Shown one piece after another: positions 21,850-30,277 of a stretch of 64,000 nucleotides of DNA. This DNA comes from Ectocarpus siliculosus (taxonomy: Eukaryota; Sar; Phaeophyceae; Ectocarpales; Ectocarpaceae), in NCBI GenBank assembly GCA_000310025.1, contig FN649743.1, forward strand, positions 2,408,658 through 2,472,657. The letters run 5' to 3'. The first letter of the stretch is position 1. Each line of letters starts with the position of its first letter. A program made the translations under genes and the position numbers. Under the pieces are notes generated by a model. That model was not told the origin of the DNA, made no database searches, and saw only the letters and a program-made list of their open reading frames with translations.

Positions 21850-24800
21850 ATGAAGTGTGCCGCTGCTTTGGTGGTCGGGGGGGCGGTCTGTGCGCAAGCG
21901 TTCCTCCCAGCCTCGTTGCCATGTCACTTGACATCATCGAAAGCGTCTGCTGTAAGAGCGAGCCGAACAAGCGTGCGTATGTCAGCCGCGGCGGAACTGC
22001 CGACGCAGGTGAGCAGGCACAGGGAATTGAGTGCGTTTTTTTTGTTTGGTCTCGCGAAGAGAGCGAAACCACCTTCAGTCTGCTGTCTGTACATGTACAG
22101 TAAATAATGTGACATCAGATTGCGGTAGGGTTGTAGCATGAAGTGCCTTTTTTTTAGTACTGTACCTGCGAGTCTACCCGCACTACTGCTGTGACCGCAC
22201 ACTGCACCACGCCCGAACCACCGTGAAGTGCATGCGAGCAAAGCGAGTCACGGTGAAACTCGAATTTGCTCAAACCGATTTACATCGACAGCACGCCAGT
22301 CTACGTTTTTTTCTCCTGGTGGTGGGCGCTCTGCTAAAGAAGAGTGGTTGCGGACTGACTTCCACGGGAAGATTCTCCCCCCCCCGGTTTCCCACACCCC
22401 AAAACGTACAGCGCAGCCTGAGGCAATGACGATACATACTTTAATGCATAGTTCATCTGACTGTCAGTGAAGAAACTTTGCTACCATCTTTTTTCTATCG
22501 GAGCCTCTCCTTCGCCGTGTTTTGAACCCCCCAACCACGTACTAGCGATTGTCGTCTGTTCGGGGAGGGCCCACACAGGGGCAGCTCGGACGGGTCGGAC
22601 AACCCCTCAGATTCACGCACCCTCCTAGGTATGCATAAGCGATTTCACATTCGACCTACTTGTACAATACACATGCCAGCAAGCGGAGAGCCTTCCTACC
22701 ACGTGGTCTGCACATTCGCGTTCCAATCAGATGTCCCCCTCTTTTTGAGGCGGCGAGAACGCAATCGATCTCGGCTTTTGATCGAAACCAACGCGTGCTA
22801 CTGCTGTGGTCGCCGCATTGGGGACGCCGTGTCTCCTTGTGCGCGATGCGCGATAAACAATGAATGAGATGGCTCTGGCCCCGTTTTTACCGATGCCACC
22901 CCGCCGCCTACAGGATGGATGTGGGTCTACAGAGTAGTGTCATCTCTCTGAGCTTGCTTTCACGGTATCACCCGAGGCGCTGATGCGATTTTTATGAAAC
23001 ATGTTAGACTGCTGACAGCTTCGTGCTGAGAGCGTTCGGCGTCCGAGCTGAGCTTCTGGGTTTCCGCTTCAGGGATTTTTTTTTTTATGCCTTTCATCGT
23101 ATGGTTACGAGACCAACAGGACCAATACACGATTCCTTTGGCAGTGCGTGCAAGCACTCTAGTTTTTCTGGCGGTCCCCCGTCAGGTTAGAGAGGGTCCC
23201 CTCCCTGCTTGCTTGCGGCGTGGTCGCACACTCTCTCTGTCGGAACACACCGAAGGCACTGATGCGATTTTACGAAACATGTTAGACTTCTGACAGCTTC
23301 GTGCTGAAAGCATTCCGCACCCGAGCTGAGCCTAGGTGTGTTCTTCCCTGGTGTGTACTACACTACAAGCGGTCTGGCGGCTTTCGCCGCCCCGCTCAAT
23401 AGATCGATTCCAAGATACGCGATAAGTGGTACTCAACATTCATTCGTGCCAGTACATATAAAGTATTCAAAATGAGAAAAAATATGCATCGGTGCGGAAA
23501 GAGGGCGTACTCGATTCATGCCATACAGCAGTAATTGCAGTATCTGATGAACATTAAAATGAAGTAGCATTGGTGAACGGAGAGTGGTGGTAGTGCTGGC
23601 GGCTTTCGCCGCCCCGCTCAATAGACCTCGACCGACCTCACCGCCACAAGTGCGCCCGGCGTCTACTCGCTTGGTTCATCGTGTATTAACTGACTGAGTA
23701 TATGTATGCGTTGCAGCAGCAAGCTATAGCACGGCACACAAGAGTTCAAATGTCATGCGGAGCGCGGAGCTGATTGCTCGGCCAAATATATTTGATCTGC
23801 TGTGGTGTGCCAAACGTTCGTCGTGAGCCACACAACTGCGATGAGATGAGCGGCCCCAGTGAGAGAAAAAGGACTGAGCAACAAACGGACCAAATCGTTC
23901 GAGCTACTGCTGCTGCTATGCTGGCGTCATGAGCAGCTTATAGTTTCCGCCACCAACGGGCGAGAGATGTATGTGTTGTCTACCTGGCACATGCTTTTTA
24001 GCAGAAACATGGTTTACGGAGCGCAGTATTCCGACTGGAAGCTATTGTAACAGTAGGGTGATCGTAGGATAGTAAGGAAGGCGATGACGATACACAAAAT
24101 GCATAGTTCATCTGATCGTTGAGTGGAGACAACTTGCACCATCTTACTTTTCATCGGAGCCTTCCCACGTTGCCTGGAGTTGACAAGCTTGGTACTTGCA
24201 ATCGCTGACAGTTAGTTAAAACAGTACCTCCAGCAACAGCCGTGTCGCTGCTTGTCTCCCCTGGTGTCTCTACTCATCGTGTTGATCCGGGATCAAACGG
24301 GATTGATTTCTCTCCCTGACCTACCCTTCTAGGGTGTGCTTTCACCTAATTGTATTCACCTGACTGTTTTTGACGAGCCACCGCTCCCCAACGCGCGCGC
24401 GCGCGTGTGTGTGTGTGTGTGTGCCGCAGTGTTTGTCGGGGAGCATGGCGTGACACCCCGTTTCTGAGTTTCACTTTGTCTGTGATGAATAGGAAAGGCT
24501 TGTGCAATAATATGCGCCTCGTTTTGCTGTTGGTATGCTATCGTGACAGCACACAAAGACGAAAACCACAACGGTGCCTTCCCTTCCAACTAGTAGCAGC
24601 GGATGTAAACTAGAGGCGGTATGAGAGGGAGTTGTACTTTGTGCGGGTGGGCCGTGACGATTAAAAAAGCATAGTTCATCTGACTTTTTTCAGTGAAGAA
24701 CTAGCTCACAAGCAAATGTCTTTCGCTCCTATCCGAGCCCCGATAACCGAACAACACCCTCACATCAACCCTTGATTCGTTCAGTAAAGCTGTAATATGG

Positions 24801-27651
24801 CTAAAGCATTGCGAATATGGGATAACGAAAGTATGGGACGCACAGCAGTTGTGTATGCATACCCCGTTGAAGCTCGCGGCTCAAATTTCGGTGGGGCCAT
24901 GACGATGCAAAATGCATAGTTCATCTGATTTTTCGGTGAAGAACTAGCTCAAAGCAAATGTCTTTCGCTCCTATCCGAGCCCCTACGATCAAGCTACAAT
25001 AACTGTACCGTGGAACCGTCATACCATGGTACTGGTAGCGTCACAAGCGTCTACCACCAATTGTACGGTTTGAACCGACCTTGCCAAAACTTGAACGTTT
25101 TTGTTTTTTGCTGTTGAGGTGGCCGACACACGGCGTCTCGACCTCTCGTGGCCACAACTTAGGGTACTCCGGGCGTTTATTGTTCTCTGAAGTAATGTAG
25201 ATGCCGGCTGAAAGCCCGCCGCTATCCACTCCTGGAAGGCTTGATTCCACGTGGTACATTGTTCGCCATACAACGCTTTGTACGTAAAACGCGCGTGTTG
25301 CTTGTGGGCCGTGACGATGCAAAATGCATAGTTCATCTGACTTGACAGTGAAGAACTAGCTCAAAGCAAATGTCTTTCGCTCCTATCCGAGCCCCCAAGC
25401 CCTCTTGACGTGCTACAAGGACGTGTGTGCCTTTTCGAATTGTTTTCTCCTCTAAGGGCGTGTGCGTTGTGTTTTGTAGTTGGGGACAGCCCTCATCCCC
25501 TAGTTTTTCGTCTTTCGTGGCGTACATTGGTCTGCCCCCTCCCTTCTGTATCGCATGGTTTCACGTGTTGAAGGGCAACATATGGTACCACGTTCTATCG
25601 AGAGTCAGAGTACATCAAGTGTCGTCCAGATGGCGTTATACCGCAGACGACGTGACCAATCCTCTTAATGTTTCTCCCAGATGGCCTTTCATGTATAGCG
25701 CAGACGGCGTGATGTGTCCTCTGTTGGTGCCACACAAAAGAGGCGATACGAAGGATGCCCATTTTTTTTCTTTTGTTTGTCCGTGTTGTCCTTGTTTCCG
25801 GTCGCAGGCCCAGCGACAGAAGGCGTTGTACGACATGGTGTACGTGGAGCGACTGCCGGAAGAGCAGCAGATGACCTCTGGACTTTTCCTGCCTGCTAAG
25901 GCTAACCCCAGGATGCACGTCTGCAAGGTACGCGACATGGGTACTTCGAAGTATGATAGTACGACAATCTCGACGGAATGGGGTCTTGTCGTTCTCTCTG
26001 AGGAAAGGATGGAAGATAGGGTCTTGTGCATGAAGAAAGATCGTCACATGAACGATTCTGATACTGTTCATCGCCGCCGACAGTCACGATCGTGTCAGAT
26101 CCATCCCATCGCTTGGACAGTGCAGTGATGACAGCGGTTTATTTATCGCACCTGGCGAACAGACCGGTTTCATTCATTCGTGTTTCGAGTTGACATTAAT
26201 ACATCGTCAGGGCCATTCAAGGTGAAGGTGAGCAATGTGCACCATACGAACGCCATCGAAGAATATTTCCCATGGGGGTCGTATTGATGACAACGACCTG
26301 CATTTCTCTTGCCGGTCACCAGCCAGTCTGTCGTTCGCCGCAACTCTTGTTTTGGTTGTGATCATCGTTGCCGCTGTCCATAGTGTGAAGACATCGGTGG
26401 CTAGTGATGATGTTTGTGGGGAGGATGGGAGAGATTGCGTCGGGCGCGACGCGCACCCCTATTTTCTTTTTGGTGGAGCGTGTAGCCCCCATGTATTAAC
26501 GGTGCACAGTGCGCGTTAATGTCTTGTTCCTTCCGTCTCTTTCTCGGGAAAGGCCGCCCCCCTTGCCGTGTTCAACGCCACTTCTGCAGTCGGGGCTCCT
26601 CTAAAGCGTGGGTTTTGTGCTACAGTGGTCCGATTTTCCTGCCCTATTCGAATTCGAACAAATTGATTTTTGTGCTAAGAGGTCTCACCCGCCCGTATCC
26701 CAGACACTCGTCGCCGTGCACATCTAAAGCCCGCACTATTGAGTGACCCCGACTTTTACCCCCCTCGTTTGTGACCCCCCAACGATTTTGTGACGTTTGT
26801 CGTTCGACGACGCTTGCATCGCAGGTCGTCTCGATCGGGAATGGCCGCGAAGGGGAAAGCGGCAACGTTACGCCGAACGATGCCGTAAAGCAGGGCGACC
26901 TCGTCTTCGTGAAGGATCCCTACGGGATTGGTGAGTTGGTCCTGCAGCGGTATTCGTGTCAGGTTGCTTTCCATTGAGCAGCAGACAGGGGCCGACAACA
27001 ACACAAGCGCTGCCTCCTTCTCCAGAGAGAGAGAAAAACTTCAGCCAAACGTTTGAAGAACGAAAACAAGGACGACCCATGCAACAGACCCCCAGATAAA
27101 GTAATCAAACCTTGTGCTTGTAAAGATATGGAGTCCCCGGTGTCTCTAACATGCACGCGTCTTGGTTGAGTCTAGCTCATTCGCTTCTTCTTGAGGCCCC
27201 AACGGCACGTCTGGTTCCAAAAACGGATGGCATGTATCTCGCACGTGGCCCTCACACGACATTTTCACCATAGATCCCCACTCCTTGCTGCAGCTCACAC
27301 TCGACGTCTCACCTCACGTAGTCTCACCACACGTGAAGCGGGAAACTACGGACCGCGCGTGTGCGTACAGCCGTTGATGTAAGCGTTACGATGTTGTTTT
27401 TGACCAACGATTCGTTTTGTGCGCTTGATTCTCCTCCGCGGCTGCTCCACGTCAACAACTCTGCACTTTTTGTTTTTTATTCGTCAGGCCCACGAGACGA
27501 CGAGTTCGCCGGGAAGAAGTTCTCTTTCGTCCGGTACACGAGCATCTGCGCCGTCATCCCGAACTCGGAAGATTTCGAGAACGCAGCGCGAGAAGCGGGC
27601 AAGTTGCAGGCCGAGATCGACAAGGCTGCAGGCAGCGGCCTCGTGTTTTAG
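21850..27651 (+). CDS. plastid-targeted 10-kDa chaperonin (Cpn10/GroES family)
   Basis: Exons 21850-22008, 25808-25927, 26825-26930 and 27488-27651 (TAG) give 182 residues. Exon 1 encodes a bipartite presequence: hydrophobic signal peptide MKCAAALVVGGAVCAQ followed by AFLPASL and a Ser/Arg/Lys-rich transit-like stretch. This is the A|F context used for import into stramenopile complex plastids. Exons 2-4 encode one GroES domain: ALYDMVYVERLPEEQQMTSG, then GLFLPAKANPRMHVCKVVSIG (mobile-loop region followed by the VxxVG strand), VKQGDLVFVKDPYGI, and KKFSFVRYTSICAVIP. The acidic C-terminal tail is short. Expected role: co-chaperonin ring capping plastid Cpn60 during protein folding. Only one GroES domain is present, unlike the tandem domains of plant Cpn20. 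Intron 1 (22009-25807) is unusually long and contains seven same-strand snoRNA-like genes. Start chosen because ATG 21850 opens the presequence. Confidence 0.88.
22420..22507 (+). ncRNA. C/D box snoRNA, U80/snR60-family paralogue (copy A1, diverged 3' guide)
   Basis: Intronic, same strand as the chaperonin gene. Terminal stem GAGGC (22420-22424) / GCCTC (22503-22507). C-like box ATGACGA, D' box CTGA preceded by the guide GCATAGTTCAT, C' box GTGAAGA, D-like box CGGA. The D' guide is the same as in the other copies, but the guide before box D (TTTTTTCTAT) is not the U80 sequence. Confidence 0.75.
22970..23061 (+). ncRNA. C/D snoRNA-like gene, family B copy 1
   Basis: Shares about 85% of its bases with the copy at 23243-23343. 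Contains TGATGCGA near the 5' end, an internal CTGA preceded by CATGTTAGACTG, a TGCTGAGA C'-like box and a final CTGA (23048-23051), with a short closing stem ACCC/GGGT. The internal guide is complementary to the eukaryotic LSU rRNA motif AGUCUAACAUGU. Confidence 0.58.
23243..23343 (+). ncRNA. C/D snoRNA-like gene, family B copy 2
   Basis: Closed by a perfect 9-bp terminal stem GAACACACC (23243-23251) / GGTGTGTTC (23335-23343). Boxes as in copy 1: TGATGCGA, CTGA after the guide ACATGTTAGACTT, TGCTGAAA, final CTGA (23326-23329). The guide predicts 2'-O-methylation of the C in the LSU sequence GGAGUCUAACA. From memory this is the position modified in yeast (snR58) and human (U104); the numbering should be checked. 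Confidence 0.65.
23374..23403 (+). repeat. 30-bp hairpin-containing direct repeat, copy 1
   Basis: CTGGCGGCTTTCGCCGCCCC and the following CGCTCAATAGA recur exactly at 23596-23625. It contains the hairpin GGCGGC-TTTC-GCCGCC. Located 30 bp downstream of snoRNA B2. Confidence 0.85.
23596..23625 (+). repeat. 30-bp hairpin-containing direct repeat, copy 2
   Basis: Identical to 23374-23403, 222 bp downstream, inside the same chaperonin intron. Confidence 0.85.
24076..24165 (+). ncRNA. C/D box snoRNA, U80/snR60-family paralogue (copy A2, diverged 3' guide)
   Basis: Perfect 7-bp terminal stem GGAAGGC (24076-24082) / GCCTTCC (24159-24165). GATGACGA C box, GCATAGTTCAT guide before CTGA, GTGGAGA C'-like box, CGGA as D box. 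The 3' half carries CACCATCTT instead of the U80 guide. The stem differs from the other copies in both arms, i.e. it covaries. Confidence 0.77.
24649..24741 (+). ncRNA. C/D box snoRNA U80/snR60 homologue (copy A3)
   Basis: Stem GGGC/GCCC. GTGACGA C box, guide GCATAGTTCAT before CTGA, GTGAAGA C' box, and the guide TCTTTCGCTCCTAT directly before the D-like box CCGA. Both guides match vertebrate U80 (CATAGTTCA and GTCTTTCGCTCCTAT, from memory) and are complementary to LSU rRNA GUGAACUAUGC and AUAGGGGCGAAAGAC. Confidence 0.87.
24893..24983 (+). ncRNA. C/D box snoRNA U80/snR60 homologue (copy A4)
   Basis: Stem GGGGC (24893-24897) / GCCCC (24979-24983). Boxes ATGACGA, CTGA, GTGAAGA, CCGA. Both guides identical to copies A3 and A5. 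Confidence 0.88.
25301..25399 (+). ncRNA. C/D box snoRNA U80/snR60 homologue (copy A5)
   Basis: Longest closing stem of the family: CTTGTGGGC (25301-25309) against GCCCCCAAG (25391-25399) with one mismatch. Boxes GTGACGA, CTGA, GTGAAGA, CCGA; guides GCATAGTTCAT and TCTTTCGCTCCTAT. It is the last snoRNA before exon 2 of the host (25808). Confidence 0.88.
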
Positions 27652-29584: not shown

Positions 29585-30277
29585 TTATATCTCCGCATAC
29601 AGTGAAGCAACAGCGATGACAAAGGCATCCGCCATGAGCTGTGTGTATGGTCCGTCTTGGGTGGTGGCTGTTAGAGACCACAGGGCGATTTGAGGCACGA
29701 AAACTGAGGTGGCGAGGGTCAACAGCACGCCGGAAAATACCCACCGCGCCAGCAACCAGTTTTTTTTGCTCTTTGGCTTATCTATGTCGCAACTTTGGTT
29801 TTTCGATGCTCCCTCGCCACCCACTCCAACACCAGCGATGACAAAGGTATCCGCCATGAGCTGTGTGTATGGTCCGCCTTGTGTGATGGTTGATACAGAC
29901 CAGGAGGCTGAAGGGCGCTCAAAAATTGTGAGCGCAACAAAGAGTCGTGGACAGGCGGGAAATATGACCCGCCTCGTCTTCAAGCAATTTGTTTTTGCTC
30001 TTTCGCCCGTGTCGCAACTTTGGTTCATCGATGCTCCCTCGCCACCCACTCCAGCAACAGCGATGACAAAGGTATCCGCCATGAGCTGCGCGTATGGTCC
30101 GTCTTGTGTGGTGGTTGACACAGACCAGGAGGCTATAGGGCGCCCAAAAGTTGGGTTCGCAAAAGTTGACAGCACACCAACAAAGACCCCCCGCTGCTGC
30201 TGCGTCCAGACTCTCTCGGCTCGTTTGCCGCTTGTTTGCACCGCACACATCGGGTTGTCCACTTGGTCCAGCCGCAT
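29585..30277 (-). CDS. tandem-repeat hypothetical membrane protein
   Basis: Intronless 230-codon ORF from a true ATG (30277) to TAA. It consists of three imperfect repeats of about 75 residues, each with the signature QDGPYTQLMADTFVIAVAGV followed by GGEGAS and NQSCD (lost in the last copy), and preceded by a hydrophobic segment such as SGVLLTLATSVFVPQIALW. The repeats give up to six possible membrane-spanning segments. The DNA repeats are 222-225 bp apart (starts near 29613, 29838, 30060), a multiple of or near a multiple of three. The opposite strand also carries a 194-codon ORF (29709-30293), so coding on this strand is likely but not proven. No family recognised. It could be a decaying repeat, although the open frame across all three units argues for selection or recent origin. 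Confidence 0.4.
   Translation of the reverse strand: MRLDQVDNPMCAVQTSGKRAERVWTQQQRGVFVGVLSTFANPTFGRPIASWSVSTTTQDGPYAQLMADTFVIAVAGVGGEGASMNQSCDTGERAKTNCLKTRRVIFPACPRLFVALTIFERPSASWSVSTITQGGPYTQLMADTFVIAGVGVGGEGASKNQSCDIDKPKSKKNWLLARWVFSGVLLTLATSVFVPQIALWSLTATTQDGPYTQLMADAFVIAVASLYAEI

Follow-up and report, generated by a model that had tools for sequence, protein, structure and literature searches.

A probable polycistron of box C/D snoRNA genes in the first intron of an Ectocarpus Cpn10 chaperonin gene

Results

An array of seven box C/D elements in one intron

The 64,000-nt stretch of Ectocarpus siliculosus DNA analysed here (the window; contig FN649743.1, forward strand, 2,408,658 to 2,472,657) contains a nuclear Cpn10 chaperonin gene whose first intron is very probably a polycistron of seven box C/D small nucleolar RNA (snoRNA) genes. 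Five are of the U80/snR60 type and two are snR58/U104-type paralogs, and the Cpn10 pre-mRNA would be processed to guides for Am817, Gm908 and Cm663 of the large subunit (LSU) rRNA. We take these to be the usual yeast numbers of the sites, the first two belonging to snR60 and the third to snR58. The direct evidence consists of stem-flanked C and D boxes, Rfam scores for three of the copies, and guide complementarity to the three sites in stand-in LSU sequences. A preliminary description had already proposed seven snoRNA-like elements on the host strand of this 3.8-kb intron, five of U80/snR60 type and two of a second C/D-like family, and this inventory holds. The array, stems included, spans 22420-25399 of a 3,799-nt intron, with the elements as follows.

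22420..22507, + strand: snoRNA A, U80/snR60 type; stem GAGGC/GCCTC, C box AUGACGA at 22426, D' box CUGA at 22457, D box CGGA at 22499-22502
22970..23061, + strand: snoRNA F, with a U104/snR58-type guide; C box CUGAUGC at 22980, D' box at 23012, D box CUGA at 23048-23051
23243..23343, + strand: snoRNA G, same family as F; outer stem GAACACACC/GGTGTGTTC, C box at 23259, D' box at 23290, D box at 23326-23329
24076..24165, + strand: snoRNA B, U80/snR60 type; stem GGAAGGC/GCCTTCC, C box AUGACGA at 24084, D' box at 24112, D box CGGA at 24155-24158
24649..24740, + strand: snoRNA C, U80/snR60; C box GUGACGA at 24654, D' box at 24680, D box CCGA at 24733-24736
24893..24983, + strand: snoRNA D, U80/snR60; stem GGGGC/GCCCC, C box AUGACGA at 24899, D' box at 24925, D box CCGA at 24975-24978
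25301..25399, + strand: snoRNA E, U80/snR60; stem CTTG.GGGC/GCCC.CAAG with one mismatch, C box GUGACGA at 25311, D' box at 25337, D box CCGA at 25387-25390

The Infermal-type check that had been suggested for these elements was made with cmscan. The snR60/U80 model RF00309 (98 positions, gathering score 41 bits) matched the window five times, three times above the gathering score and twice below it. The three matches above it, to C (24645-24744, 62.7 bits), D (24890-24986, 68.3 bits) and E (25302-25398, 62.2 bits), align with the entire model and have E-values of 1.1e-9 to 2.6e-8 over the window. Across the Ectocarpus assembly (189 Mb, 492 contigs), where 60 of 4,414 first-look candidates were scored, A to E were the only matches at an E-value of 1 or less, three of them over the cut-off. 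Among 14 control genomes, five gave weak matches and none passed the cut-off. Searching IMG/VR with the U80 guide pattern returned nothing, and the U18 model (RF00093, cut-off 41 bits) gave a single match of 26.9 bits across the Ectocarpus genome. Weak matches of RF00300 to A (21.6 bits), and of the snoU2-30, sn1502 and DLEU2 models near F and G, were taken as chance.

The clustering is also apparent independently of Rfam. Scanning for a C-box core with at most one change from TGATGA, a D box ending in GA and a flanking stem of at least 5 bp recovered A, F, B and D as the only four sites on the + strand of the intron; C, E and G, with uninterrupted inner stems of only 4 bp, escaped the scan. 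The remainder of the window, searched on both strands (~124,200 strand-nt), holds six such sites, so that ~0.2 would be expected in the intron, and the density there is ~20-fold higher.

The bodies of C, D and E are 90–94% identical to each other. A and B differ by 20% and are 68–71% and 67–69% identical to C–E, respectively (a difference of ~30% between the groups). Judged by sequence, A and B are diverged U80 paralogs, although they are not RF00309 members by score. The 55-nt flanks are 38–54% identical (39–54% among C, D and E), near the level of unrelated sequence in gapped alignment, and therefore either selection acts on the bodies alone or snoRNA-sized pieces were copied.

Boxes and terminal stems

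Compared with the consensus RUGAUGA and CUGA, A–E combine RUGACGA with CCGA or CGGA, and F, G and a third family member described below, H, combine CUGAUGC with CUGA. The C-box core is UGACGA in all of A–E; A and B have CGGA as their D box, and C, D and E have CCGA. The letters of the sheared G.A pairs are retained in every element, the D' box is CUGA in all seven, and for the C' box B has UGGAGA and the other four U80-type copies have UGAAGA. In the kink-turn (K-turn) geometry that we assume, the altered C-box letter faces the second letter of the D box, and the U.U pair would therefore be replaced by C-G in A and B and by C.C in C–E.

Uninterrupted inner stems of 4–7 bp, GC-rich and with one G-U pair in F, close all seven elements, and a single nucleotide links stem and C box in each. 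Within the terminal stems of A–E, three inner pairs are invariant and one position is G-C in three copies and A-U in two. Across a 7-pair helix 77.1% of cells pair, a value reached by 122 of 500 shuffles; the count of pairs changed on both sides was reached by 113 of 500 and that of such cells by 21 of 500, and sliding the helix by +1 gave a covariation score of 0.371 against 0.257 unslid. The fold of G is far better than that of its shuffles (z −4.05, 0 of 200 as good). Several A–E copies fold with the D' guide GCATAGTTC paired to sequence that follows C' (~24940-24950 in D), a possible self-pairing of the guide.

Guide pairing with LSU rRNA

The guide sequences were compared with stand-in LSU sequences because the Ectocarpus assembly gave rRNA fragments and no intact rDNA. 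One LSU pattern and a gapped LSU pattern each returned no match in this assembly, and the sarcin-ricin pattern returned one, inside a 3' LSU fragment (L011:7558-7914). A further fragment (L012, ~1501-1614) includes a 111-nt stretch 89% like yeast 25S, and two 5.8S matches (L013:1501-1642 and L014:1501-1663) are over the cut-off in otherwise unrelated surroundings. No intact rDNA unit was found in the assembly, the LSU and 5.8S pieces being isolated on different contigs. The pattern AAAGATGGTGAACTATGC retrieved seven GTDB contigs, three with LSU sequence (L020, L022 and L023), and two IMG/VR contigs, one with a partial LSU (L016). The main guide test was carried out on two of these four contaminant contigs, L020 and L023. 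GTDB labels L020, L022 and L023 as Thermodesulfobacteriota, Mangrovicoccus and Paludibacteraceae; the LSU on them represents contamination or chimeras. The guides are listed below.

22446..22456, + strand: D' guide of A, GCATAGTTCAT; pairs with LSU GTGAACTATGC
23002..23010, + strand: D' guide of F, TGTTAGACT; pairs with LSU AGTCTAACA
23280..23289, + strand: D' guide of G, TGTTAGACTT; pairs with LSU GAGTCTAACA (L023)
24101..24111, + strand: D' guide of B, GCATAGTTCAT; from the guide test
24718..24732, + strand: D guide of C, GTCTTTCGCTCCTAT; pairs with LSU ATAGGGGCGAAAGAC (L022)
24960-24974 and 25372-25386, + strand: D guides of D and E, respectively; from the guide test

All five D' guides of the U80 type pair with GTGAACTATGC through 10 Watson-Crick pairs (12 in C) and one G-U, in 10 of 10 tests on L020 and L023. 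Their helices begin at the base adjoining the D' box and place an A at the methyl position. The D guides of C, D and E form 11 pairs at ATAGGGGCGAAA in L020 and 10 at TAGGGGCGAAA in L023, plus one G-U (6 of 6 tests), with G as the methyl position; they form 14 pairs and one G-U in L022 and 13 pairs and two G-U in the Ectocarpus fragment L012. The U80-type guides proposed in the preliminary description thus hold for D' in all five copies and for D in C, D and E, the D guide to the Gm908 site being absent from A and B. Complementarity, whose absence from the species' LSU had been named as telling against snoRNAs, was found in the stand-ins and in this one short fragment of the species' own.

The D' guides of F and G form nine pairs with AGTCTAACA, with C at the methyl position, in three of four tests. 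On L020, G has an equal-scoring non-target place; a separate comparison gives the LSU site with 11 pairs and one G-U, two of the pairs coming from D'-box letters. The D-side sequences of F and G found no LSU target in L020 or L023 (6–7 pairs). In L020, AGTCTAACA starts 153 nt before GTGAACTATGC and ATAGGGGCGAAA starts 91 nt after it, and all three sites therefore lie in one LSU region. The table of PMC3511168 numbers the three sites Am815, Gm906 and Cm661, records their conservation across Arabidopsis, human and yeast, and assigns the last to human U104 and yeast snR58. Methylation of Arabidopsis 25S is reported at A826 and G917 (U80) and at C675 (SnoR58Y) in PMC8053127.

Several observations weigh against reading the intron as a snoRNA polycistron. 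Two of the U80-type copies, A (22417-22510, 36.1 bits) and B (24075-24166, 34.9 bits), lie below the RF00309 cut-off, and cmscan places F and G, as well as H, in no Rfam family above cut-off. The boxes of A–E deviate from UGAUGA/CUGA, as does the C box CUGAUGC of F and G. Minimum-energy folds of the six elements A–F are unremarkable (z −0.74 to −2.07), and the covariation score of the A–E stems was reached by 85 of 500 shuffles. The test LSU is eukaryotic sequence from contaminant contigs. Finally, 300 random stretches of the window reached at least nine pairs 45 times on L020 and 30 times on L023, at least 10 pairs nine and six times, and at least 11 pairs three and two times. Helices of such lengths are not rare by chance, and the weight of the guide test therefore rests on hitting homologous sites.

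Diversification of copies A and B

In addition to the shared D' guide, A and B both carry ACCATCTT, the complement of LSU AAGATGGT, which adjoins the Am817 target on its 5' side. A candidate accessory element in each copy and a candidate new D guide in B were located.

22483..22491, + strand: possible accessory element of A, ACCATCTTT; LSU AAAGATGGT beside the D' target, nine pairs reached by 115 of 20,000 composition shuffles
24137..24145, + strand: possible accessory element of B, CACCATCTT; nine pairs reached by 183 of 20,000 composition shuffles
24145..24154, + strand: candidate new D guide of B, TACTTTTCAT; LSU ATGAAAAG(TA)

Nine-pair matches within 30 nt of the target occurred in 56 of 20,000 random stretches, and the accessory region of C, D and E reaches at most seven pairs. 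A and B share a common ancestry, and their accessory matches are therefore not independent. The candidate D guide of B forms 10 pairs with ATGAAAAGTA in L020, a length that nine of 300 random stretches reach, and eight pairs in L023, reached by 74 of 300. The D-guide region of A forms seven pairs in L020 and 10 elsewhere in L023 (10 and 8 for B). Accessory pairing is said to have been described for yeast guides by van Nues in 2011. Extra pairing is mentioned for Arabidopsis guides in PMC8053127.

It is conceivable, although unlikely, that A and B are simply decaying copies, the working set being C, D and E together with F/G/H, and that their D guide was lost as unneeded, leaving a meaningless remnant. 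Their sub-threshold Rfam scores would fit, as would D-guide regions that have no strong target common to both test LSUs. However, the terminal stems of the two copies are different and still paired, the D' guide and D' box are intact in both, and in the assumed K-turn geometry their D box, CGGA, could form a C-G pair with the C box. Furthermore, the shared ACCATCTT matches the LSU beside the D' target at a length that few shuffles attain.

The array might also be a divided toolkit and not mere repeats, a reading that we regard as doubtful. The dual guides C, D and E would serve Am817 and Gm908, A and B would have swapped the Gm908 guide for accessory pairing 5' of the Am817 target, and B would have gained a D guide at the LSU adenosine in ATGAAAAG. 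The K-turn would have been rebuilt in all five (a C opposite the D-box C or G replacing U.U), and production would be tied to expression of the plastid chaperonin.

The host gene and its first intron

The host gene has four exons in a continuous reading frame, and its introns are bounded by GT and AG.

21850..22008, + strand: exon 1, with the start codon and a signal-peptide-like presequence followed by AQAF; from translation and splice sites
22009..25807, + strand: intron 1, GT-AG, 3,799 nt, housing all seven snoRNA elements
25808..25927, + strand: exon 2, where the Cpn10 domain begins
26825..26930, + strand: exon 3; from translation and splice sites
27488..27651, + strand: exon 4, through the stop codon; from translation and splice sites

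As the preliminary description had it, the 182-aa product is a Cpn10 protein (Pfam PF00166, E-value 6.3e-12). The presequence alone suggests that the chaperonin is plastid-targeted; we presume it to be of the bipartite type with AQAF, following the stramenopile rule. Long introns are a feature of the window, which has a GC content of ~55%.

We consider it improbable, about as much so as the divided toolkit, that the snoRNAs are transcribed from a promoter of their own within the intron as an independent cluster, with the chaperonin gene a bystander. Independent transcription is common among the snoRNA clusters of plants, and intergenic positions are given for 10 of 12 Ostreococcus clusters (PMC7671301). 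However, all seven elements lie on the host strand of a single intron, and H, too, is intronic and shares the strand of its host, a different gene.

Additional Cpn10-domain matches in the genome lie at C14:2752590-2754123, C1:2306579 and C3:1037293-1042522, and the C14 pair may be one double-domain protein. A search of IMG/VR with the Cpn10 protein gave three pattern matches, none of them confirmed. Between G and B the intron contains a 30-nt perfect direct repeat, CTGGCGGCTTTCGCCGCCCCGCTCAATAGA (23374-23403 and 23596-23625), possibly a dispersed element; by eye, a stretch like CAGCGATGACAAAGGTATCCGCCATGAGCTG is repeated three times, spaced, at 29600-30160 of the window.

A second snoRNA family in two host genes

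Searching the Ectocarpus genome at the DNA level with G as query returned F and a third copy, H, in addition to the query.

C18:2377845-2377927 (L026/L028), minus strand: snoRNA H, ~54 kb from G; stem CTACCTTCGC/GCGAAGGTAG

H is flanked by exons of a nuclear gene of the ATP-synthase beta type, on the host strand, in an intron that appears to be GC-AG. Three of four host peptides are over the Pfam cut-off for PF00006 or PF02874 and one is below; the assignment to the beta type is our own reading of the sequence.

The guide, the D' and D boxes, and the one-nucleotide linker geometry are kept in F, G and H. Their terminal stems are built from unrelated letters with pairing preserved: H has a perfect 10-bp stem, G an outer 9-bp stem above an inner 4-bp stem, and F a stem of 4+4 bp. 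Stem covariation, which the preliminary description had offered as strong evidence for structured RNA, is convincing for this family and weak for A–E.

With the SNORD104 (U104) model RF00289 (cut-off 40 bits), F, G and H score 20.0, 17.0 and 17.5 bits, and with the plant snoR64 model RF00267 (cut-off 45 bits) H, G and F score 34.7, 22.9 and 18.2 bits. The cmscan guide regions CAUGUCAGACU (snoR64) and CGUGUUAGACU (SNORD104) are close to CAUGUUAGACU of F, G and H. Weak SNORD104 matches elsewhere (L006-L008), without the F/G guide, were taken as chance, and such matches also occur in 13 of the 14 control genomes.

F, G and H might instead be some other structured RNA that resembles C/D RNAs and does not guide methylation, which we judge slightly less probable again than a separate promoter. 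Their C box is off consensus, they fall below every Rfam cut-off (the best being H against snoR64), the D side has no LSU target, and the 9-pair D' helix is within what random stretches reach. This reading has to contend with a guide, box and linker geometry conserved in all three, with terminal stems rebuilt from different letters, and with a guide that matches the site of human U104 and yeast snR58. That the elements are chance repeats without RNA function, as the weak single-sequence folding of six of the seven might suggest, is extremely improbable given the RF00309 E-values of C, D and E, guides that match homologous LSU sites, and the ~20-fold density of C/D-like sites.

Discussion

The most likely account is that of a housekeeping intronic snoRNA polycistron that has partly diversified. 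The Cpn10 pre-mRNA would be transcribed and intron 1 spliced out, single snoRNAs would be cut or trimmed from the intron as far as the K-turn that each terminal stem caps, and the products would bind the C/D core proteins. They would then guide 2'-O-methylation of the LSU at Am817 (A–E), Gm908 (C, D and E) and Cm663 (F and G), with A and B retaining just the one for Am817. The presence of several copies probably serves dosage. The chaperonin gene would act as a host and not as a functional partner, and no functional link to the chaperonin is needed.

That two unrelated housekeeping genes carry members of one snoRNA family in their introns is in line with the 'constrained drift' described in PMC3511168, in which snoRNAs move among broadly expressed hosts. 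Ancient guides are here kept while hosts change, one snoRNA family being shared by a Cpn10 and an ATP-synthase beta-type intron. The array adds a clear intronic snoRNA polycistron for the brown-alga and stramenopile lineage, and its paralogs, which differ in guide content and boxes, offer a natural experiment on the required parts of a C/D snoRNA. A bulk prediction of snoRNA loci in Ectocarpus is described in PMC4513859. In the literature searched, mostly without subscription journals, we found no snoRNA cluster in a Cpn10 intron and no intronic snoRNA polycistron in brown algae or stramenopiles. The array is a fresh example of an established gene organisation, with added interest from its altered boxes, the loss of a guide in two copies, and the second host gene.

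Chlamydomonas reportedly has extensive intronic snoRNA clusters. The first such clusters are credited to rice and Drosophila in PMC2780460, and PMC7671301 gives two of 12 Ostreococcus clusters as intronic. The Ectocarpus array resembles these four in grouping several snoRNAs, presumably processed from a common precursor, within a single protein-gene intron; it differs in its Cpn10 host, in one family amplified to five copies, and in its brown-alga genome. Chaperone or chaperonin hosts are familiar from U14 in hsc70 and SNORA15 in CCT6A, where, as far as is known, there is one snoRNA per intron; here seven share one. U14 is present in hsc70 introns in three copies (PMC7277114), and CCT6A is named as the SNORA15 host in PMC6466398. 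The statement in the preliminary description that such an arrangement is undescribed was too strong: there are precedents both for intronic clusters and for hosts of the chaperone or chaperonin kind (PMC2780460, PMC7671301, PMC6466398, PMC7277114).

As for the second family, F and G share with U104/SNORD104, snR58 and snoR58Y the D' guide to the same LSU site, which is numbered Cm661/Cm1327/Cm674 in PMC3511168 and C675 in PMC8053127. They differ from U104/SNORD104, together with H, in their scores of 17.0–20.0 bits and the C box CUGAUGC, and their D side is not conserved between F and G. The family scores best against snoR64, whose guide resembles theirs, and is still below that cut-off; the Arabidopsis table assigns SnoR64 to 25S U2884 and not to C675.

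C, D and E share with U80/snR60 both guides, to the Am817 and Gm908 sites, and a recognisable C'/D' motif, and according to PMC8413462 snR60 and one other yeast snoRNA have a C'/D' that follows the consensus. They depart from the usual U80/snR60, as do A and B, in combining UGACGA with CCGA or CGGA and in forming five copies within one intron, two of which lack the Gm908 guide. Schizosaccharomyces pombe is listed in PMC2780460 with snR60-I and snR60-II for the two snR60 sites; the Ectocarpus intron, in contrast, has three dual-guide and two single-guide copies.

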